In this document: positions 11,259-37,514 of the stretch, one piece after another
Numbering within the stretch: position 1 is the stretch's first letter
Layout of the letters: every line of letters begins with the position of its first letter
Virus record (IMG/VR): IMGVR_UViG_3300006982_000001
Coordinates: 64,001 to 104,118 of that record
Origin: a virus
Direction: 5' to 3' (one strand)
DNA length: 40,118 nucleotides
Notes under the pieces: generated by a model
The model's input: only the letters and a program-made list of their open reading frames with translations
Told to the model about the DNA's origin: nothing
Databases searched by the model: none
Position numbers and translations under genes: made by a program

Positions 11259-11807
11259 ATGGCAACCGATTTCGTCTTCCCGGAGGACTCAGGTACGGGA
11301 GCGACCGGGGGTGACAACGCGGACGCTGCGAACTTCGCTACGTTGGCTTACGCTACGGGATTCAAAGACGTCGCTATCTCGGGGCTGGGTCTATCAAACA
11401 CCACCTACGGAACGTCTACAGATGTAGATGCCGGTCTATGCGTCGTCACGGACGCGAGTGCTCAAGAGGCTCAGACGAGCGAAGTCCGAGATCAAGGAGT
11501 GGCCTACTCTGTGATCGTAGCAGCTCGTACGGGGTTGTCTCTGAGCGCTTCGGGTGTGGATGCGATCTGGCTGGACATCGATCTATCTACCGACGATACG
11601 ATCACCATCCAAGTCGGTGAACCAGCCAGTCAGCCGAAGCTCAAGTTGGCCGAAGTCGACAACGATAACAACGAGACCACGCTGTTCAACCGAGTCCGTG
11701 AAACGACTCAGACATACGCTACTCGTAGCGATGTCCCGAACGTCCCGACGGGTCAATCGGTGTTCGTCGAGGACGTGAACAGATTCCTCTACGAGGATGG
11801 GCAATGA
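11259..11807 (+). CDS. Tail fibre/appendage protein, paralogue A
   Basis: This 182-residue acidic, beta-rich protein begins with DFVFPEDSGTGATGGDN. The same opening recurs in the next gene (DFVFPEDAGTGAPGGDN), and the two match through a DIDLSTDDTITI core, so they are tandem duplicates. The end (QSVFVEDVNRFLYEDGQ) recurs at the C-terminus of the gene at 12403. This region is a set of shuffled modules typical of fast-evolving phage adhesion proteins. The intact copy is the reference that shows paralogue B is frameshifted. Confidence 0.7.
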   Translation: MATDFVFPEDSGTGATGGDNADAANFATLAYATGFKDVAISGLGLSNTTYGTSTDVDAGLCVVTDASAQEAQTSEVRDQGVAYSVIVAARTGLSLSASGVDAIWLDIDLSTDDTITIQVGEPASQPKLKLAEVDNDNNETTLFNRVRETTQTYATRSDVPNVPTGQSVFVEDVNRFLYEDGQ

Positions 11808-12046
11808 CCGTCGACTTTGTCTTCCCCGAGGATGCCGGGACAGGAGCTCCCGGTGGGGACAACGTCGATGCAGCTAACTTCGCCGCTCTCGTCCATCAAG
11901 AGAATCTCGCCAGCTTCGTTCAGAATGGAGTGGATCTGACGTACAACTCCGGAGATCCATCAGTCGATCTCTCGGCTGGAATGCTATTTGTAGAGGATTC
12001 AGGAGCCCAAGAAGCCAGACGTCCGAGACTCGGGATCGGGGAGTGA
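11804..12046 (+). CDS. Tail fibre protein paralogue B, N-terminal fragment
   Basis: This 80-residue product overlaps the previous stop (ATGA). It matches paralogue A up to DSGAQEA; the last nine residues (RRPRLGIGE) are unlike A. Moving one base back at GCC 12014-12016 gives QTSETRDRGVTYVVL, which restores the match to A's QTSEVRDQGVAYSVI and runs into the next reading frame. One base seems lost in the third position of the Ala codon. The intact protein would be 198 residues (11804-12399). A sequencing error, a true mutation or a recoding event would look the same. Confidence 0.65.
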   Translation: MTVDFVFPEDAGTGAPGGDNVDAANFAALVHQENLASFVQNGVDLTYNSGDPSVDLSAGMLFVEDSGAQEARRPRLGIGE

Positions 12047-12399
12047 CCTATGTGGTCTTGATGTCGCCACGGTCGGGGATCGGTCTCGCTGCTGGATCTG
12101 TGAACTACGTCTACGTGAGCATCGACCTGAGCTCCGACGACACGATCAATATCACCACAAATACTACGGCAACTCCGCCGAGTAATCCATCTGTGCAGGT
12201 AGCCACGATCGACACCTCATCCGACGAGGTAGCAAAGAACTACGACGTTCCGGAGTCTGAATGGCTATCTGCTCTGGTGCGGATGTCGGTTCGGCTGGGA
12301 GAGGTGCTGGAGATCCCAGCTGAATATGGTCACACCGTTGCTGGTCCGTACAAGATCGACGGGCAGATCAAAGTAGACGGTACGCTAAAGGTGGTGTAA
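12043..12399 (+). CDS. Tail fibre protein paralogue B, C-terminal fragment
   Basis: This 118-residue frame begins at GTG 12043, overlapping the previous stop (GTGA), so coupled translation is possible. It carries the core VSIDLSSDDTINI that matches paralogue A, then diverges to a Thr/Pro linker and a C-terminal part with GPYKIDGQIKVDGTLKV, a repetitive 'DG' strand like fibre shafts. The frame is open upstream to the point where it joins the N-terminal fragment. I read it as the second half of one gene broken by a single missing base. Confidence 0.65.
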   Translation: MTYVVLMSPRSGIGLAAGSVNYVYVSIDLSSDDTINITTNTTATPPSNPSVQVATIDTSSDEVAKNYDVPESEWLSALVRMSVRLGEVLEIPAEYGHTVAGPYKIDGQIKVDGTLKVV

Positions 12400-12402
12400 A
12401 GA

Positions 12403-12777
12403 ATGACAGTCACTCTCGACAGCGACCAGTTAGACTTCGAGACTCACAACTGGAGGTTCTACATCGATGAAGGTGCTGATGAGCTCGTCGTAGAGCACAA
12501 AGCATCCTCCACAGAACTCCGCTTTAACTCGGCAGGCGAGTTCGATGGGGTGGATGTCTCGGCTCACTCCTCCCGTCACGGTCCGGGAGGATCGGACGAA
12601 CTCATCGATCAAGGTGTAGATACCACCGATGACGTGGTTCACAATACCGTCAAATCTTCGGTACGTCAGCCCTTCCCGAAGTATGCAACCATCGACGACG
12701 TCCCGGCTTCGCTTGAAGAAGCAGACGTCGCGTGGGTGCAAGATGTGAACCGATTCGTGTACGACGACGGAAACTGA
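12403..12777 (+). CDS. Tail fibre/appendage protein with RHGPGGSDEL motif
   Basis: This 124-residue acidic protein starts three bases after the preceding frame. The middle holds SAHSSRHGPGGSDELID, matching the 'H-x2-RH-x-PGGSD-L' signature common in phage tail fibre proteins. The C-terminus (VAWVQDVNRFVYDDGN) is shared with the protein at 11259, perhaps a joint for binding a common partner. It is a likely fibre segment; the receptor is unknown. Confidence 0.7.
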   Translation: MTVTLDSDQLDFETHNWRFYIDEGADELVVEHKASSTELRFNSAGEFDGVDVSAHSSRHGPGGSDELIDQGVDTTDDVVHNTVKSSVRQPFPKYATIDDVPASLEEADVAWVQDVNRFVYDDGN

Positions 12778-31180: not shown

Positions 31181-31186
31181 AGCTTG

Positions 31187-31870
31187 ATGTCAGACTGTGA
31201 CTGCTTGAATTGTGGGCCGATCTGCCCGACCTGTGGAAACGAATATCAGAGTCAAGAAGGCATGAGAACTCACCACGCCAAAACTCACGGCGAGAAGATC
31301 GAGTGCATTGCTCGGGAGAGGGATGTACCATGCCCGTCTTGTGACCGGATGTTCGTGTCCGAGAACGCCGTCAAACAGCATCATGTCCAAACTCACGGTG
31401 AGTCGCTCACGAGAGTAGAGATGGAGTGTGCTGTTTGCGAAACGACGAAAGAGATCAATCAGTGGCGAGCTGAGATGGTCGAGAGTTGGACGTGCTCTGA
31501 TCAGTGTCATCGTCTCCTTAAGCGGCTCCAGATGAAGGACAGAGACATTGATTGGGGTCATAAAATCTCTGATTCCCTTCAACAGTACTTCGAGGAGAAC
31601 GGTCCACACACCGAGGGTGAAGATCATTGGCGGTTCAAGGGTGGACGAGCCGACCGCGAGCGGTTGTCCCCTAAATTCAAAGAGGCAGTCCGGGAGTCAC
31701 GGGGTAGGCAGTGTGAGGAGTGTGGTAAGGATGAGTCGGAGCAGGACCGAGCGTTATCAGTCCACCACGTCGACGAGGATCCGACGAATAATGACCTCGA
31801 CAATCTGGAGGTTCTGTGTCGGTTCTGCCATATGAGCGAACACATGGAACGAGATAAGGCGAGACAATAA
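31187..31870 (+). CDS. HNH endonuclease with two C2H2-type fingers (homing type)
   Basis: This 227-residue protein carries two finger motifs in the N-terminus: CPTC with HHAKTHGE, and CPSC with HHVQTHGES. A Cys-pair module comes next (CAVC, then CSDQC). The C-terminus is an HNH core: CEECGKDE, then VHHVDEDPTNNDLDNLEVLC and CRFCH. Such genes copy themselves into sites cut by their own nuclease. It stands between PCNA and primase genes. Its codons (AGA, TTA) and lower GC differ from both neighbours. The start is ATG 31187. Confidence 0.85.
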   Translation: MSDCDCLNCGPICPTCGNEYQSQEGMRTHHAKTHGEKIECIARERDVPCPSCDRMFVSENAVKQHHVQTHGESLTRVEMECAVCETTKEINQWRAEMVESWTCSDQCHRLLKRLQMKDRDIDWGHKISDSLQQYFEENGPHTEGEDHWRFKGGRADRERLSPKFKEAVRESRGRQCEECGKDESEQDRALSVHHVDEDPTNNDLDNLEVLCRFCHMSEHMERDKARQ

Positions 31871-31872
31871 CA

Positions 31873-33051
31873 ATGGGATGGGCGAGACCAATGAAATTAG
31901 GCCCGGTCAATAGAGAGCTGTTCGGGAAGTACCCACGTCACGTCGGCTTAGTGGGACCTGAACGCGGCGAGCACAGAGATCAGTTCCTCGCCTTCGACCG
32001 GGCGTGTTTCGACCTATTCTTGGATGCGAACTACGGAGAGAACAATCTCTACACGAGAATCAGTCACATCGGCGATGCCGGTGGCTCGATCCTCGATAAG
32101 GTGTTCTTGGATCTGGACGTCGACAAACCCGATACGGATCGGGATACCGATTGGGCGTCTGAGATCATCCCCGAGATGAGGGACGACAGGATGGTGGCTG
32201 ACGACGTCCTCGGTGACGTGGTCGAAGACGCTCGGAGGGCTGCTCGCTACATACAGGAACGTGAGTGGCCTGCTCTGGCGATCTTCAGTGGACTCGGCAT
32301 CCACATTCATATCCTGACGGAACCGCGTGTGCAGCCGGACAGGGAGCTTAGAACGATGACGAGGATGATCGAGGACGAGGCGTCCCTTCAGACGTTGGAC
32401 GAGAAGGGCGCGCGTCAGGGTGACTACAATCGCCTCTGCCGCATCGCGAACTGTCCTCGAGTCGCCTCGGATGGCTACCCCCTGTCGCTCTACACGATCC
32501 CGCTCACCGTCCAAGAGCTGGTCGATATCACGCCCGACGACTTACTGAAGATGGCTGAGGAGCCTCGGCAGGTTCCGCTCCCGAGCGGAGACCGTCCGAA
32601 GATGGAGATCTTCGAGGACTACGAACCAGACACGGAGGCCGGAGTGGTCGACGTGGATACGGCTGAGGTTGGTGAGGTCTCTCCGTCCGAGTACGGTGAG
32701 CAGTTCGAGACGTTCGTCAAGGACGTCCTCAAGATGCCCTGTATGTACGAGCGACTGATGACCCGGAACCCGGACCACGACGTCCGCTTGAACTGCGCGG
32801 CGCTGATGTTCAACAGCGGGATGGGCGTGGACGGTGTGCAGGACGTATTCCGAAAGCTCGGCTGGTTCGACTACGATCCAGAGATCACTCGGGACAAGCT
32901 CGAGCACATCTACGACAATCGCTACCGAACGATGTCGTGCCAGACGATCCAAGAGAAGGGTCTCTGCGTGTACGAGAAGGGCGAGCGCGAGGAGTGTCCG
33001 ACGTTCGGATGGCGTGGAGGCCAGTGTTCGTGGAACGGGAGGTCTGAGTAA
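31873..33051 (+). CDS. DNA primase, PriS-type with PriL-like iron-sulphur domain
   Basis: This 392-residue archaeo-eukaryotic primase has catalytic aspartates in FLDLDVD (D80, D82) and SGLGIHIHI (139-147) with H144 and H146, then NCPRVASDGYPLSLY, as in PriS. Residues about 285-380 look like the C-terminal domain of PriL, with MPCM (C290), SCQ (C356), GLC (C365) and ECP (C375), four Cys spaced for a 4Fe-4S cluster. One chain thus seems to hold both subunits' key domains. It starts three bases after the HNH gene. The first 35 codons contain several AGA and TTA codons, rare later in the gene. Confidence 0.85.
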   Translation: MGWARPMKLGPVNRELFGKYPRHVGLVGPERGEHRDQFLAFDRACFDLFLDANYGENNLYTRISHIGDAGGSILDKVFLDLDVDKPDTDRDTDWASEIIPEMRDDRMVADDVLGDVVEDARRAARYIQEREWPALAIFSGLGIHIHILTEPRVQPDRELRTMTRMIEDEASLQTLDEKGARQGDYNRLCRIANCPRVASDGYPLSLYTIPLTVQELVDITPDDLLKMAEEPRQVPLPSGDRPKMEIFEDYEPDTEAGVVDVDTAEVGEVSPSEYGEQFETFVKDVLKMPCMYERLMTRNPDHDVRLNCAALMFNSGMGVDGVQDVFRKLGWFDYDPEITRDKLEHIYDNRYRTMSCQTIQEKGLCVYEKGEREECPTFGWRGGQCSWNGRSE

Positions 33052-33893
33052 TGGGTGTAGCCAGAACCTCCCGAAGGGTTATGAGTCCTGCTCTGTTAAA
33101 GACGTTTGGGTGTAGCCAAATGTCGGAGTGTCCTACTTGTAGTAGGTCTTTTAGTACGGAGCAGGGAATGAAGCAACACCATACTAAGACTCACGGAGAG
33201 TCTCTCACGACTACAGATGTGGAGTGTGAGTGGTGTGGTGAGGAGGATACTATCCAGCAGTGGCGGATGAACTGTCAAGAACGCTGGTTCTGCTGTGATG
33301 AGTGTCGCCTTTCGTGGGATAGTGAGCGGAAGAAGGGTTCATTCGTCGGCGATCAGTACGACACGCCATCAGGCGAAGATCACCATCAGGCGAAGCGTGA
33401 AGACCGTACCTGCGTGATATGCAGTGAGGTGTTCTCGGTTCAGCCGTGGAAAGAAAATCAGACGTGTAGTAGAGACTGCGCCTACGAATTACGAAGTCAG
33501 TCTATCTCCGAGGCTGCTGGTGATCGTAGGTTTGGTGGTTGGGAGTGGAGAACTGTTCCCCAGACAGGTCACGAGGTACGCTCGAGTTGGGAAGAAGAAA
33601 TAGACCTACTACTCTACGATGTGGGTGTAGAATACGAGTACGAGAGTCAGATCTTCGAGCTGAAGAACTCGTCTTACTGCCCTGATTTCATCGTAGACGA
33701 TGTAGTAATCGAGGTGAAAGGGTATGCCTCGGATAGGTGTCTGCGGAAGGGGGAACAGTTTATGGAGCTATACCCGGACCACCGGTATGTTGTCGTTCAA
33801 GGAGCTGGAGAGCCGATCCAGTGTGACGTTCATATCGATTGGGATGATCGGGAGGCACTACGAGATGTAGTAGGCGGTCAGGCGAGCTGGTGA
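33051..33893 (+). CDS. Zinc-finger PD-(D/E)XK endonuclease (homing type)
   Basis: This 280-residue protein overlaps the primase stop (TAATG), though ATG 33120 (residue 24) is an alternative start matching relatives. The finger CPTC with HHTKTHGESL is shared with the genes at 31187, 35092 and 37142. Further Cys pairs (CEWC, CCDEC, CVIC, CSRDC) follow. The C-terminus has SSWEEEIDLLLYDVG, CPDFIVDD and VIEVKGY, a PD-(D/E)XK core (E, PD, ExK), unlike the HNH core of two relatives. The same finger front joined to a different nuclease suggests module swapping. Base use is more AT-rich than in the neighbours. Confidence 0.75.
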   Translation: MGVARTSRRVMSPALLKTFGCSQMSECPTCSRSFSTEQGMKQHHTKTHGESLTTTDVECEWCGEEDTIQQWRMNCQERWFCCDECRLSWDSERKKGSFVGDQYDTPSGEDHHQAKREDRTCVICSEVFSVQPWKENQTCSRDCAYELRSQSISEAAGDRRFGGWEWRTVPQTGHEVRSSWEEEIDLLLYDVGVEYEYESQIFELKNSSYCPDFIVDDVVIEVKGYASDRCLRKGEQFMELYPDHRYVVVQGAGEPIQCDVHIDWDDREALRDVVGGQASW

Positions 33894-33944: not shown

Positions 33945-34952
33945 ATGACGACAATAGAAGACACGGTGTGGGTTGAGAAGTATAGACCGAGTACCCTCGA
34001 CGAGATTATGGGGAACACGAAAGAGACGTCCCGACTCAAGGATTGGGTCGATGACGCCGCGATGCCGAACGTCCTCCTCTGGGGTCCTCAGGGCACAGGG
34101 AAGACGGCTGCCGCCGTTGCCTTCGCTCGGGACAAGTACGGTGACGAGTGGCGGAACCACCTGCTCCAGCTCAACGCCTCGGACGAACGTGGCATCGAGA
34201 CGGTGCGGACGAAGATCAAGAACTTCGCCTCGCAGGGCGGGGTGATGGGCCAGCACGATTTCAACATCGTCCTCCTCGACGAGGTCGACAATATGACTCG
34301 TGACGCCCAGCCTGCGATGCGCCGGATTATGGAGGACTTCCACGATCGGACTCGGTTCTTCCTGATCTGCAACTACCCGAACAAGCTGATCGATCCGATC
34401 CAGAGTCGGTGCGCTCCGCTTCAGATGAGCCCGCTCCGGCTGGAGCAGATCATCGATCTACTCGAGGACGTCGCCGAGAATGAGGGGCTGGAGTACGAAC
34501 GGGAGCAGCTGGGGACGATCGCTACTCAGGCGGAAGGAGACGCGCGTAAGGCGATCCACACGCTCCAGAGCGCTTCGTCCGACGGAAAGGTCGTGGACGA
34601 GTTCCTCGAGGCTGTCGTCAGTCTGGTGGACGAAGACACGGTCGCCGAGATGGTGGAGGCCGCGATCAACGGGGATCAGGACACGGCGATGAGTCTCATC
34701 GACCAGATGCTCAAGAATGGGATCGACGTCCAAGCGCTCTGCGATGTGATTATGGACGTGGTCCTCGAGTACGACGACATCCCGGCTGACAGCCAGAGTC
34801 TGCTCGTCGACAAGGTGGCTGACTGCGAGTGGCGGATCCTCCACGGGTCAAACGCTGGCCTGCAGTTGAGAGCCTTAGTGACCGACCTCAGGATGGCTCG
34901 CCATATATCCTTGAACCCCTATCGGGAGGAATCGGACCATCCCGAGGTCTAA
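33945..34952 (+). CDS. rfcS: Clamp loader, RFC small subunit
   Basis: This 335-residue AAA+ protein has VWVEKYRPSTLDEIMG at the start, Walker A GPQGTGKT (residues 47-54), Walker B LLDEVD (D112, E113), the SRC motif with a downstream pair of helical domains, and the C-terminal collar. It loads the PCNA-like clamp. The last 25 codons show an unusual mix (TTG, AGA, TTA, ATA), and the ending SLNPYREESDHPEV is repeated in altered form at the end of the HNH protein that follows. No large RFC subunit is in the window. Confidence 0.93.
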   Translation: MTTIEDTVWVEKYRPSTLDEIMGNTKETSRLKDWVDDAAMPNVLLWGPQGTGKTAAAVAFARDKYGDEWRNHLLQLNASDERGIETVRTKIKNFASQGGVMGQHDFNIVLLDEVDNMTRDAQPAMRRIMEDFHDRTRFFLICNYPNKLIDPIQSRCAPLQMSPLRLEQIIDLLEDVAENEGLEYEREQLGTIATQAEGDARKAIHTLQSASSDGKVVDEFLEAVVSLVDEDTVAEMVEAAINGDQDTAMSLIDQMLKNGIDVQALCDVIMDVVLEYDDIPADSQSLLVDKVADCEWRILHGSNAGLQLRALVTDLRMARHISLNPYREESDHPEV

Positions 34953-34957
34953 GAGGC

Positions 34958-34991
34958 AAGGTATAATAGTATAGAGTTATAATGTTATACC
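34958..34991 (+). promoter_or_regulatory. Promoter of the regulator/HNH unit
   Basis: AAGGTATAATAGTATAGAG has TATAATA at 34962-34968. The start GTG at 34992 falls about 25 bases on, where transcription should begin. The gene is therefore probably leaderless. Confidence 0.55.
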
Positions 34992-35105
34992 GTGGCAACG
35001 ACAATCAAAGTATCCGACGATAGCTGGGAGCGTCTGGATGAGTTGAAGGACAGAGGTCAGTCCTTTAACGATGTGATTCAGGAGGTTCTCGATGAGTATG
35101 AGTAA
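34992..35105 (+). CDS. Ribbon-helix-helix-like mini-regulator (37 aa)
   Basis: This 37-residue protein starts at GTG 34992. It reads TTIKVSDDSWERLDELKDRG followed by FNDVIQEVLDEYE: a strand and two helices, as in archaeal antitoxins and ribbon-helix-helix repressors. The gene at 29852 has the same pattern. Its end overlaps the start of the HNH gene at 35092, so the two are one unit, probably a small repressor that limits expression of its nuclease. It is AT-richer than its neighbours. Confidence 0.65.
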   Translation: MATTIKVSDDSWERLDELKDRGQSFNDVIQEVLDEYE

Positions 35106-35835
35106 AGCAGCTTGCCCCACTTGCGACAAAGAACTCAAATCACAGGCGGGTGTGAAACAGCACCACGCCAGAACTCACGGAGAGTCTCTGGTAACAGAGA
35201 TGTCGATCTGTGAGTGGTGTGGGGAGGAGTTCGAGTATCTTCCTTCGAATGGAGAAGGTCGGTACTGCTCCAAGGAGTGCTGGTCAGCTCATCAAAATGA
35301 GCAGCATAGAGTGGAAATGGTGGAATACGAGTGTGAGACCTGTGGATGCTCTTTCGAGCTGAAATCTTGGTACTCAAGCGAGGGAAAGTATTGCTCGGTG
35401 GAGTGCCGAGCGGAGGATCGTGTTGGTGTGGATCTGATCAGCGAGGAGGCGAAGGCTCGTATGTCTGAATCCAGATTGGGTGAAGATAACCCGAATTGGT
35501 CTGGGGGCAGTTCTGATTTATACCCACCGGGATGGAGAGAGGCTCGTGAACAGGCTCGGAAGAGAGATAATCATAGATGTGTATTGTGTGGTCTGACCAA
35601 CGAAGAACATCGTGAAAAGTGGAGAGATCTACCTGTCCACCATATGGTTCCACGACGGTATTTCTACCGTGATGGTAAGTGGTTGCCGGGAGTGAACGAT
35701 CTCTCCAACTTGGTCACGTTGTGTAAACCCTGTCATATGGAACAAGAAGCAATCATCAACAGAGAATCGGTTACTGAACAAGACGTCAGTCTCGATCCGT
35801 ACCGAGAGGACACGGAGGAACACCCGAACCTATGA
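35092..35835 (+). CDS. HNH endonuclease with finger N-terminus, inserted at clamp loader gene
   Basis: This protein has 247 residues from ATG 35092, or 245 from ATG 35098. Its CPTC/HHARTHGESL finger is followed by two Cys-pair modules (CEWC with YCSKEC, CETC with YCSVEC). A LGEDNPNWSGG linker leads to the HNH core CVLCGL, LPVHHMVPR and NLVTLCKPCHM. The last 17 residues (VSLDPYREDTEEHPNL) do not belong to HNH proteins but match the end of the clamp loader (SLNPYREESDHPEV). The stop overlaps the next ATG (ATGA), as native genes do. I infer that the unit landed in the 3-prime end of the clamp loader gene and that its tail is the displaced original. Confidence 0.85.
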   Translation: MSMSKAACPTCDKELKSQAGVKQHHARTHGESLVTEMSICEWCGEEFEYLPSNGEGRYCSKECWSAHQNEQHRVEMVEYECETCGCSFELKSWYSSEGKYCSVECRAEDRVGVDLISEEAKARMSESRLGEDNPNWSGGSSDLYPPGWREAREQARKRDNHRCVLCGLTNEEHREKWRDLPVHHMVPRRYFYRDGKWLPGVNDLSNLVTLCKPCHMEQEAIINRESVTEQDVSLDPYREDTEEHPNL

Positions 35836-36029
35836 ACGAAGGCGATCGGGTGACGCTGTCGAAGGACGTCCCTCGGCCAGAGGAGTACGAGCAGATGGCA
35901 CCCGATAGCTACTACTACGTTCATCAGGAGACCGGGCGGCAAATCATCGACACGACCTACAAAGCGAAGGTCGAACGCCGGAACCGTCTGGCGAACCACA
36001 TCGAGGAGATCGAACCATATGAAGAGTAA
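35832..36029 (+). CDS. Small charged protein, unknown
   Basis: This 65-residue protein starts in an ATGA overlap with the HNH gene end and overlaps the next gene by 11 bases. It reads as a small beta-barrel start (MNEGDRVTLSKDVPRPEEY) and a charged helical end (RRNRLANHIEEIEPYEE). GDRVTLSKDV resembles KOW or SH3-like openings. No family was recognised. If the HNH unit is an insertion, this gene originally followed the clamp loader directly. Confidence 0.6.
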   Translation: MNEGDRVTLSKDVPRPEEYEQMAPDSYYYVHQETGRQIIDTTYKAKVERRNRLANHIEEIEPYEE

Positions 36030-36321
36030 CCACGGATTCATCTGTCTGCTCACCGGACACCGGAAGACTGAGTACGAGACGACGTTCAACGAGATCGGTC
36101 GTCACGCCGAGCTGAAGCGGTGCCGCCGGTGTGGGAAGGGAGAGGAGGTGGCGTTCACCGGTCCGATCTTCCCCGGTGAGGCAGACGATCCAGAGGAGGC
36201 TCTGGAGTATATCAGCGAGCACGAGGACTACGATCCCGAGGATACGATCTGGGAGTGGGACGAACCGAACGCTACGAAAGAGCAGCTCGACGAACTACGA
36301 GACGGAGACAAAGCACTATGA
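36019..36321 (+). CDS. Acidic protein with CxxC motif
   Basis: This 100-residue protein overlaps both neighbours. The first half has MKSNHGFICLLTGHRKTEY and RCRRCGKGE, so Cys and His near the start could bind a metal with CRRC. The second half is acidic and disordered-like (EYISEHEDYDPEDT). It is similar in build to viral zinc mini-proteins elsewhere in the window. Function unknown. Confidence 0.55.
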   Translation: MKSNHGFICLLTGHRKTEYETTFNEIGRHAELKRCRRCGKGEEVAFTGPIFPGEADDPEEALEYISEHEDYDPEDTIWEWDEPNATKEQLDELRDGDKAL

Positions 36322-37142
36322 ACCGACAGAAATGGGAAGACGAGGAGGAGCTGGTCGACCCGGAGGACTCCGTCTTCCGGCTCTCAGCCTCCTCCGTGAA
36401 GGCGCACAAACGCTGCCCGTATGCGTTCTACCTGTCGAAGGTGGAGCGACTACCGGGCACGAAGACGAGCGCGGGTCACCTCGAACTCGGCTCTGCAGTC
36501 CACGAGTCGATCGAGGAGGTGTTCAAGCAAGACCGATGGCGTGAACCACCTCGTCCGCAGAACCAGCTCCGCCAAGAGCTGATCAGCGAATACCGGAAGT
36601 GGAACCCGGACGTCGACGACGAGATGTGGGAGAAGGGTCTGGAGTGTCTGGAGACCTGCGCGAAGTACGTCTGCGCCTATCAGGACGACGCCGTCGTGAA
36701 GGACATCGAGCCGGAGTTCAATTTCACTCTGGGCCGAGCAGACATCTCCGCGAAGTTCAAGGGCTTCATCGACCTCGTCACGGAGGACGGACAGATCCTC
36801 GATTGGAAGACGGGATCGGTCCGAGAGGAGGGTGAGGTCATTCAGGGAGCCGTGTATATGCGCGGCTACCAAGAACTCTACGGTGAGGCTCCAGAGGCGA
36901 TCCGGTTCGTCTATCTGGACGAGGGGACGGAGCGGAAGCTCGAGCCGTCCGACGAGAATTGGGACGAGATGATCAAGCACGCGAAGCGGTGTGTGCAGGA
37001 CATCCGCCGGGAGCAGTTCGACCCGGAGCCAGACGACTCGAAGTGCTACTGGTGTGACTATGAAGGCTTCTGCCACGCCAGCGCTGTCGGGTTTGGAGGG
37101 ATGGACTACGATCGAGCGAAGCAACGGAGGGTGAAGTTCTGA
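36318..37142 (+). CDS. Cas4/RecB-like PD-(D/E)XK nuclease with iron-sulphur Cys
   Basis: This 274-residue protein starts at ATG 36318 (ATGA overlap). Motifs in order are SASSVKAHKRCPYAFYL (C33), AVHESIEE (H62), GFIDLVTEDGQILDWKTG with D152 and D162-x-K164 as the metal site, and CYWCDYEGFC (C243, C246, C252). C33 plus the last three Cys make the 4Fe-4S staple of Cas4, AddB and related nucleases. It probably trims DNA ends in recombination with RadA or the Sak4-like protein. Cas1 and Cas2 are absent, so a CRISPR role is not indicated. The truncated finger gene follows in an overlap at 37142. Confidence 0.88.
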   Translation: MNRQKWEDEEELVDPEDSVFRLSASSVKAHKRCPYAFYLSKVERLPGTKTSAGHLELGSAVHESIEEVFKQDRWREPPRPQNQLRQELISEYRKWNPDVDDEMWEKGLECLETCAKYVCAYQDDAVVKDIEPEFNFTLGRADISAKFKGFIDLVTEDGQILDWKTGSVREEGEVIQGAVYMRGYQELYGEAPEAIRFVYLDEGTERKLEPSDENWDEMIKHAKRCVQDIRREQFDPEPDDSKCYWCDYEGFCHASAVGFGGMDYDRAKQRRVKF

Positions 37143-37483
37143 TGGGGGTGGACTGCCCCACCTGTGGTCAGGAGTGCGCCACAGAGAACGGGATGAAGAA
37201 CCATCACGCGAAGATCCACGATCAGTCCCTCGCGAGAGTGGAAGTAACCTGTCCGACGTGCGCGGATACGTTTGAGGAGTACGAGAGTCAACTCGGAGTC
37301 TTCGGATCCAATCGGTACTGCTCTCGTGACTGCTACGAGCAGATGCGATCGATGCGTCAGTCAGGCAAAGATCTGGAGGAGATCATCGGCGAGGAGGCTA
37401 TCGCCGAACGGTGGTTAGCTCTGATGCGATACCGCTGGCTACACCCGGAAGAAGGTAATCGGGCTGGCACCACTCTGGGATAG
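37142..37483 (+). CDS. Truncated finger protein related to homing endonucleases
   Basis: This 113-residue protein overlaps the nuclease gene's stop. It has CPTC with HHAKIHDQSL, then CPTC and YCSRDC, the same N-terminal fingers as the genes at 31187, 33051 and 35092. No HNH or PD-(D/E)XK core follows; the rest is a helical tail (IIGEEAIAERWLALMRYRW). It is most likely an endonuclease that lost its catalytic half, or a finger protein with a new role. A possible finger fragment lies just downstream. Confidence 0.7.
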   Translation: MGVDCPTCGQECATENGMKNHHAKIHDQSLARVEVTCPTCADTFEEYESQLGVFGSNRYCSRDCYEQMRSMRQSGKDLEEIIGEEAIAERWLALMRYRWLHPEEGNRAGTTLG

Positions 37484-37514
37484 TTTCAAGGGTCGGCGCG
37501 CCAAATTCTGAGGC

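Follow-up and report, generated by a model that had tools for sequence, protein, structure and literature searches.

Nuclease cassettes that carry recoded ends of conserved genes in haloarchaeal tailed viruses

Results

The window analyzed here is a stretch of 40,118 nucleotides, bases 64001-104118 of a virus record (G000) that is 104,118 bases long. The annotated viruses nearest to this record are HVTV-1, HCTV-1, HCTV-5 and HCTV-16, haloarchaeal tailed viruses of the Druskaviridae. The window contains rfcS, the gene for the small subunit of the clamp loader, followed by a small ribbon-helix-helix (RHH) gene and a zinc-finger HNH nuclease gene whose open reading frame (ORF) runs on into a second, diverged copy of the rfcS end. 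An earlier interpretation made from these letters alone (the sequence-only reading) had proposed that the two genes entered near the end of rfcS and brought a recoded copy of that end with them. L001, an IMG/VR relative without the RHH-HNH unit, served as the uninterrupted reference. The features of the locus, in window coordinates, are as follows.

33945-34952, + strand: rfcS, the clamp loader small subunit and invaded target gene; Pfam AAA and Rep_fac_C; 75% identical to L001 rfcS
34866-34949, + strand: recoded rfcS 3' end in current use, 28 codons, delimited by codon comparison with L001 and permutation; within it, 34905-34949 (15 codons) is the duplicate of the displaced end
34957-34994, + strand: imperfect inverted repeat 5' of the RHH gene, GGTATAA..TTATACC, two 17-nt arms, 82% complementary
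34992-35105, + strand: small RHH protein gene of the cassette, 37 amino acids; Pfam DUF7557, VAPB_antitox and RHH_1
35092-35835, + strand: the cassette's nuclease gene, of zinc-finger HNH type, with an ORF that also takes in the displaced rfcS end; Pfam HNH PF01844 at residues 163-216, PHROG HNH endonuclease 5.5e-29
35785-35835, + strand: displaced original rfcS 3' end, VSLDPYREDTEEHPNL plus stop, serving now as the HNH protein's tail; assigned by codon match to L001
35832-36029, + strand: next gene, 65 amino acids, ATGA-coupled to the displaced rfcS stop; absent at that place in L001 and Druskaviridae

The ends of the two proteins resemble each other, as had been noticed from the sequence: rfcS closes with RMARHISLNPYREESDHPEV and a stop, the HNH ORF with TEQDVSLDPYREDTEEHPNL and a stop. 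This resemblance is far above chance. When the tails were compared with 864 control C-termini from ten virus genomes, their score of 46 was reached only by rfcS itself and its L001 orthologue, the next best control scoring 31, and among 20,000 shuffled rfcS tails a single one attained it. Homologous HNH proteins end shortly past the HNH motif without such a tail; when IMG/VR and the genome collection were scanned with the window protein, no close relative was returned, and the same tail was thus not seen on HNH proteins elsewhere. The TGA of the HNH ORF also overlaps the ATG of the next gene at 35832, just as described earlier. What the sequence-only reading took for the promoter of the unit is no more than the imperfect dyad at 34957-34994, from its form a possible operator or promoter.

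The odd codons reported for the end of rfcS could be delimited to its last 28 codons (34866-34949), the most deviant part of the gene. This stretch lies at the gene's lowest level of codon adaptiveness, and none of 20,000 synonymous permutations within the gene was as low. Counted over residues that agree, the same codon is used in L001 at 3/20 positions in the last 28 codons vs 126/219 in the remaining gene. L001 also provides the empty site that the sequence-only reading had anticipated: its rfcS ends GTC AGT CTG AAT CCG TAC CGT GAG GAC.. and overlaps the next gene by ATGA. Over the 15 duplicated codons the HNH tail matches this end at 34/45 nt and 7/9 codons, as expected of the old rfcS end, whereas the present rfcS end matches it at 25/45 nt and 1/9 codons. 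The prediction of an overlap with the gene at 35832 held in part, as the L001 rfcS stop does overlap its neighbor, but that neighbor is homologous to the window gene starting at 36019. The 65-amino-acid gene at 35832-36029 has no family match and appears to be an insertion or loss of its own. Six further rfcS loci with no nuclease behind them (HVTV-1, HCTV-1, HCTV-5, HCTV-16, L028 and L029) have a plain end with a stop/start overlap.

Two other IMG/VR contigs, L031 and L033, end inside the rfcS cassette, before any nuclease gene is reached. Their rfcS genes are identical at 737/936 positions (79%), yet they share 56 identical bases that span the recoded tail, the stop and the start of the intergenic region up to the end of the shorter contig, and this identity begins at the codon where the displaced end of the window starts (VSL). 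An identical recoded tail and gap over 79% identical backgrounds indicates that the recoded end travels as a unit, and its position at the same codon indicates that the same site is used in other viruses. Both contigs come from the same metagenome and both break inside the same rfcS cassette, as one would expect of a cassette present repeatedly in the sample. The L001 empty site, the L031/L033 tails and the recurrence at other genes described below together support, at the level of sequence, the earlier proposal that the RHH-HNH unit entered near the rfcS end along with a recoded end.

The same design can be followed in cultured viruses. Relative to HCTV-16, queE of HCTV-1 carries a 653-bp insertion at codon 20, and the flanks are 293/300 identical on each side (98%). 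The displaced queE start is now the N-terminus of the nuclease and is 59/60 identical to the empty HCTV-16 gene, while the start in use matches HCTV-16 at 42/60 nt and 17/20 amino acids and shares 6/16 codons. As a comparison of two genomes, this is base-resolution proof of cassette insertion. The HCTV-1/HCTV-16 pair also bears on whether the gene end was duplicated in tandem in situ, the nuclease landing between the copies and the upstream copy drifting afterwards. Tandem duplications are common, and the nuclease is flanked by two copies of the end as such a history requires. However, the flanks and the displaced copy differ by about 2% between these viruses and the copy in use by 30% (42/60), so drift following duplication in situ is not the origin of the latter. 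The recoded rfcS tail is likewise identical in two viruses with 79% identical rfcS bodies, and therefore arrived with the cassette; we consider an in-situ origin very improbable.

In the reverse comparison, rfcL of HCTV-16 has a 103-bp insertion relative to HCTV-1 that consists of a recoded end, EEYGAKSQSVLDF with its stop, and about 62 nt. The original end follows the insertion as in HCTV-1, with 38 aligned bases identical, and by its structure the insertion is a nuclease-free scar of the same cassette design. In HVTV-1 and HCTV-5 a common nuclease behind thyX ends EEMVHRKNRLAP and thyX itself ends EEMIHRKNRLAP; this nuclease differs from that of G000.

Other kinds of element were considered and rejected. 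A mobile intron or intein does not fit the layout, since rfcS is complete upstream, its ORF closed by the recoded end and a stop, the displaced end is redundant, and the nuclease is a separate ORF with its own stop. Integrase-mediated insertion at a 3' end was rejected because only the RHH and nuclease ORFs, and no integrase, lie between the two copies. Nor is there an identical duplicated att core, as the copies agree at 24/45 nt at rfcS and 42/60 at queE.

Two more cassettes lie close to rfcS in the window, behind the primase gene and a Cas4/RecB-like gene.

33016-33033, + strand: recoded primase end, GGQCSW, of the gene at 31873-33051; 11/18 nt identical to the uninterrupted L001 primase end
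33120-33893, + strand: second cassette, lodged in the 3' end of primase, its nuclease of the zinc-finger PD-(D/E)XK type; absent in L001; PHROG endonuclease 2.7e-27
33873-33893, + strand: displaced original primase end, GGQASW plus stop, now the nuclease tail; 17/18 nt identical to the L001 primase end GGQSSW
36318-37142, + strand: Cas4/RecB-like gene, the third invaded gene, with altered end AKQRRVKF; Pfam PDDEXK_1 1.2e-28
37142-37483, + strand: third cassette, a zinc-finger remnant of an HNH-type nuclease with the HNH domain gone; PHROG HNH-endonuclease family matches cover the zinc-finger part only
37485-37511, + strand: displaced original Cas4-like end, FKGRRAKF plus stop, out of frame behind the remnant; 7/8 amino acids as in L001 (FKRRRAKF) vs 5/8 for the present end

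Further cases occur elsewhere in G000. The folE gene (GTP cyclohydrolase, PF01227) is followed by an HNH gene and, directly behind this, a 44-codon displaced end, and thyX (PF02511) by a helix-turn-helix-HNH gene ending HAKNRLAP. Behind tRNA-Leu(taa) at 41979-42080 lie an HNH gene and a displaced tRNA 3' half (42610-42642), which ARAGORN calls as tRNA-Leu(taa) when joined to the 5' half of tRNA-Leu. Judging from its sequence, queE probably carries a cassette as well. The gene-end duplication pattern is present at 7/10 G000 nuclease genes, weakly at one of these, and nucleases of different families are found at different invaded genes. We regard the evidence as strong at HCTV-1 queE (5' end), the rfcL scar, rfcS, folE (as a duplication) and HVTV-1 thyX, as medium at the primase, Cas4-like, tRNA-Leu and G000 thyX loci, and as weak at G000 queE; the primase, Cas4 and thyX cases involve few codons.

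Two further explanations were weighed. If the HNH tail were an adapted or domesticated fusion, its resemblance to rfcS would reflect a function of its own, such as partner binding or translational coupling. At rfcS, primase, thyX and queE the nuclease reading frame does continue through the displaced end, and the stop/start overlap is kept at rfcS. At folE and the Cas4-like gene, however, the displaced end lies out of frame, at tRNA-Leu it is non-coding, and the likeness includes synonymous codons, which are not selectable through protein function. A domesticated tail is accordingly a very unlikely source of the resemblance. Passive co-conversion, in which recombination with a divergent virus brought in a foreign end together with a nuclease that played no active part, with recoding that protects nothing, has more in its favor. 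Recoded ends do resemble foreign orthologues, the first 20 queE codons of HCTV-16 and HVTV-1 sharing by eye about as few codons as the recoded copy (6/16), and flanks are also co-converted in T4-type homing (PMC2988022). Replacement of a segment would nevertheless delete the end of the recipient gene, whereas every case retains the gene's own end immediately after the cassette, and each junction holds a nuclease, these nucleases being of different families, a pattern that fits precise insertion. Passive co-conversion is thus unlikely, although less so than the other alternatives.

Several side observations were made. A second RHH and zinc-finger HNH pair lies behind queE at L023 7954-8695 (same coordinates in G000), and the presence of two RHH-HNH units in one genome suggests that the RHH gene belongs to this cassette type. 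Another zinc-finger HNH gene, at window 31184-31870 between PCNA and primase, is common to L001, where it is stop-broken; no gene-end duplication was seen at it. The tRNA-Leu(taa) gene, to which ARAGORN assigns a 20-nt intron, is the last of at least 11 closely packed tRNA genes (L025 2573-4080; G000 40573-42080). The tail YATRSDVPNVPTGQSVFVEDVNRFLYEDG is repeated about 870 nt downstream in window 11259-12700 (G000 75259-75807 and downstream), and this recurrence probably reflects tandem paralogues among structural genes. In mycobacteriophage records, for example NC_023695.1 41168-41410, HNH matches to the window protein lie under DNA methyltransferase annotations and are possibly fusions or insertions.

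Discussion

We conclude that the rfcS unit belongs to a group of nuclease cassettes that insert at the ends of conserved viral genes and bring a recoded functional end with them, a reading to which we assign a probability of roughly 0.87. Genome comparison establishes that an intact gene end was entered, that the original end was displaced, that a divergent end arrived with the cassette, and that this happened at several genes. Nuclease activity, site specificity, homing and protection by recoding we infer from the same sequences.

Some observations weigh against this conclusion. When codon usage at the rfcS end is ranked against other gene ends it is only moderately unusual (18/75), a weak ranking because the control set includes spurious ORFs. 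At folE the comparison turned up no close relative with an uninterrupted gene, and both copies are equally far from distant ones; the displaced copy of G000 thyX is no closer to distant relatives than the present copy; and the G000 queE case depends on 3-4 codons. Three nuclease genes in G000 are free of gene-end duplication, and an HNH gene of HCTV-16 (MZ334524.1 48447-49031) sits cleanly between polB and an acetyltransferase gene when compared with HCTV-1, with neither a duplicated gene end nor a tail. No gene-end duplication was found at the nuclease loci of HATV-3, HFTV1, BLv36, HRTV-28, HJTV-4, HGTV-1, PhiCh1 and ChaoS9. As several nucleases lack a cassette, cassettes are one of at least two insertion modes. 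In T4, ICP1, SPO1, Aeh1 and HGTV-1 we found no rebuilt gene ends, and unbiased scans gave, by eye, paralogues, repeats and low-complexity matches.

In our reading, a 3'-type cassette comprises the recoded last codons of the target with their own stop, followed by a zinc-finger HNH or PD-(D/E)XK nuclease gene, which in two cases is preceded by a small RHH gene. It sits at a single point near the target end; the target then uses the recoded end while the original end is kept downstream as a C-terminal tail of the nuclease or an out-of-frame remnant. The 5'-type is its mirror image: the former start codon and the codons next to it now open the nuclease gene, and the recoded start comes after. By the mechanism we think likely, the nuclease would cut or nick the conserved gene end in a co-infecting relative whose allele is uninterrupted, and the cassette would be copied in during recombinational repair (homing). 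Recoding would keep the cut site from being rebuilt at the left junction, would avoid direct repeats able to delete the cassette, and would let the invaded gene keep working. The recoded end may be that of a foreign orthologue, not one reshaped by selection, and our guess is that the RHH gene and the dyad may control nuclease expression. We also favor, with reasonable but clearly lower confidence than the cassette structure itself, a natural homing-with-rescue system in which cassettes cut conserved gene ends (3', 5' or tRNA), carry a cut-resistant replacement, spread through needed genes without harm and are hard to delete.

Cassettes that bring a spare end would explain how free-standing nucleases can invade needed genes. 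Since the nucleases bring spare ends, the ends of replication and nucleotide-synthesis genes in such viruses would be replaced piecemeal by divergent sequence, which would mislead gene trees and annotation through tails on nucleases and short orphan ORFs behind these nucleases. HCTV-1 and HCTV-16 are cultured viruses of one host species, which makes the cassette idea directly testable. Our search gave no prior account of such cassettes from viruses or archaea, although one may exist, most subscription papers lying outside it.

Among known systems, there are integrase elements, e14 at icd being one, that insert into a tRNA or protein gene and restore its 3' end. They share with the cassettes an alternative end at a gene 3' insertion, but need an integrase and att sites, whereas here there is a nuclease and the two copies differ. 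Homing-with-rescue gene drives engineered in insects, which are Cas9 designs, place a nuclease in a needed gene together with a recoded, cut-resistant end. The cassettes resemble these drives in layout; they are natural, and their drive activity is putative. The T4 free-standing homing endonucleases, as covered in an excerpt of PMC2988022, lie between genes or split a gene without repair (Aeh1 nrdA). The cassettes are like this intronless homing in that the nucleases stand outside introns, beside conserved genes of nucleotide metabolism and replication, and are patchy among relatives; the excerpt mentions no rebuilt gene end, and an excerpt of PMC8651126 no gene-end duplication. Other features shared with free-standing homing endonucleases are a homing-type nuclease domain (HNH PF01844, PHROG endonuclease families), a place outside inteins as well as introns, and presence or absence at the same site among relatives. 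In Tremella, mitochondrial introns duplicate part of the host gene and lead to exchange of gene pieces (PMC7315562); those elements are removed by splicing, whereas the cassettes are separate reading frames with stops and no intron.

The closest likeness is to the mobile-ORF hybrids of fungal mitochondria (Allomyces atp6; Glomus/Rhizophagus atp6, atp9, cox2 and nad3), in which an endonuclease ORF lies near the gene 3' end, a foreign C-terminal piece restores the gene, and the native end stands downstream and is closer to a relative than the inserted one (PMC3630166). A partial duplication split by an endonuclease ORF, with the native copy downstream and closer, is what we observe at rfcS and primase and, in mirror image, at HCTV-1 queE. 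The fungal hybrids are mitochondrial and use LAGLIDADG or GIY-YIG nucleases, whereas the cassettes belong to archaeal double-stranded DNA viruses and use zinc-finger HNH and PD-(D/E)XK nucleases; unlike the hybrids, they occur several to a viral genome, include a tRNA target and often leave the displaced end fused to the nuclease. The cassettes would extend the fungal mitochondrial pattern to viruses of archaea, and offer a natural parallel to engineered rescue drives.
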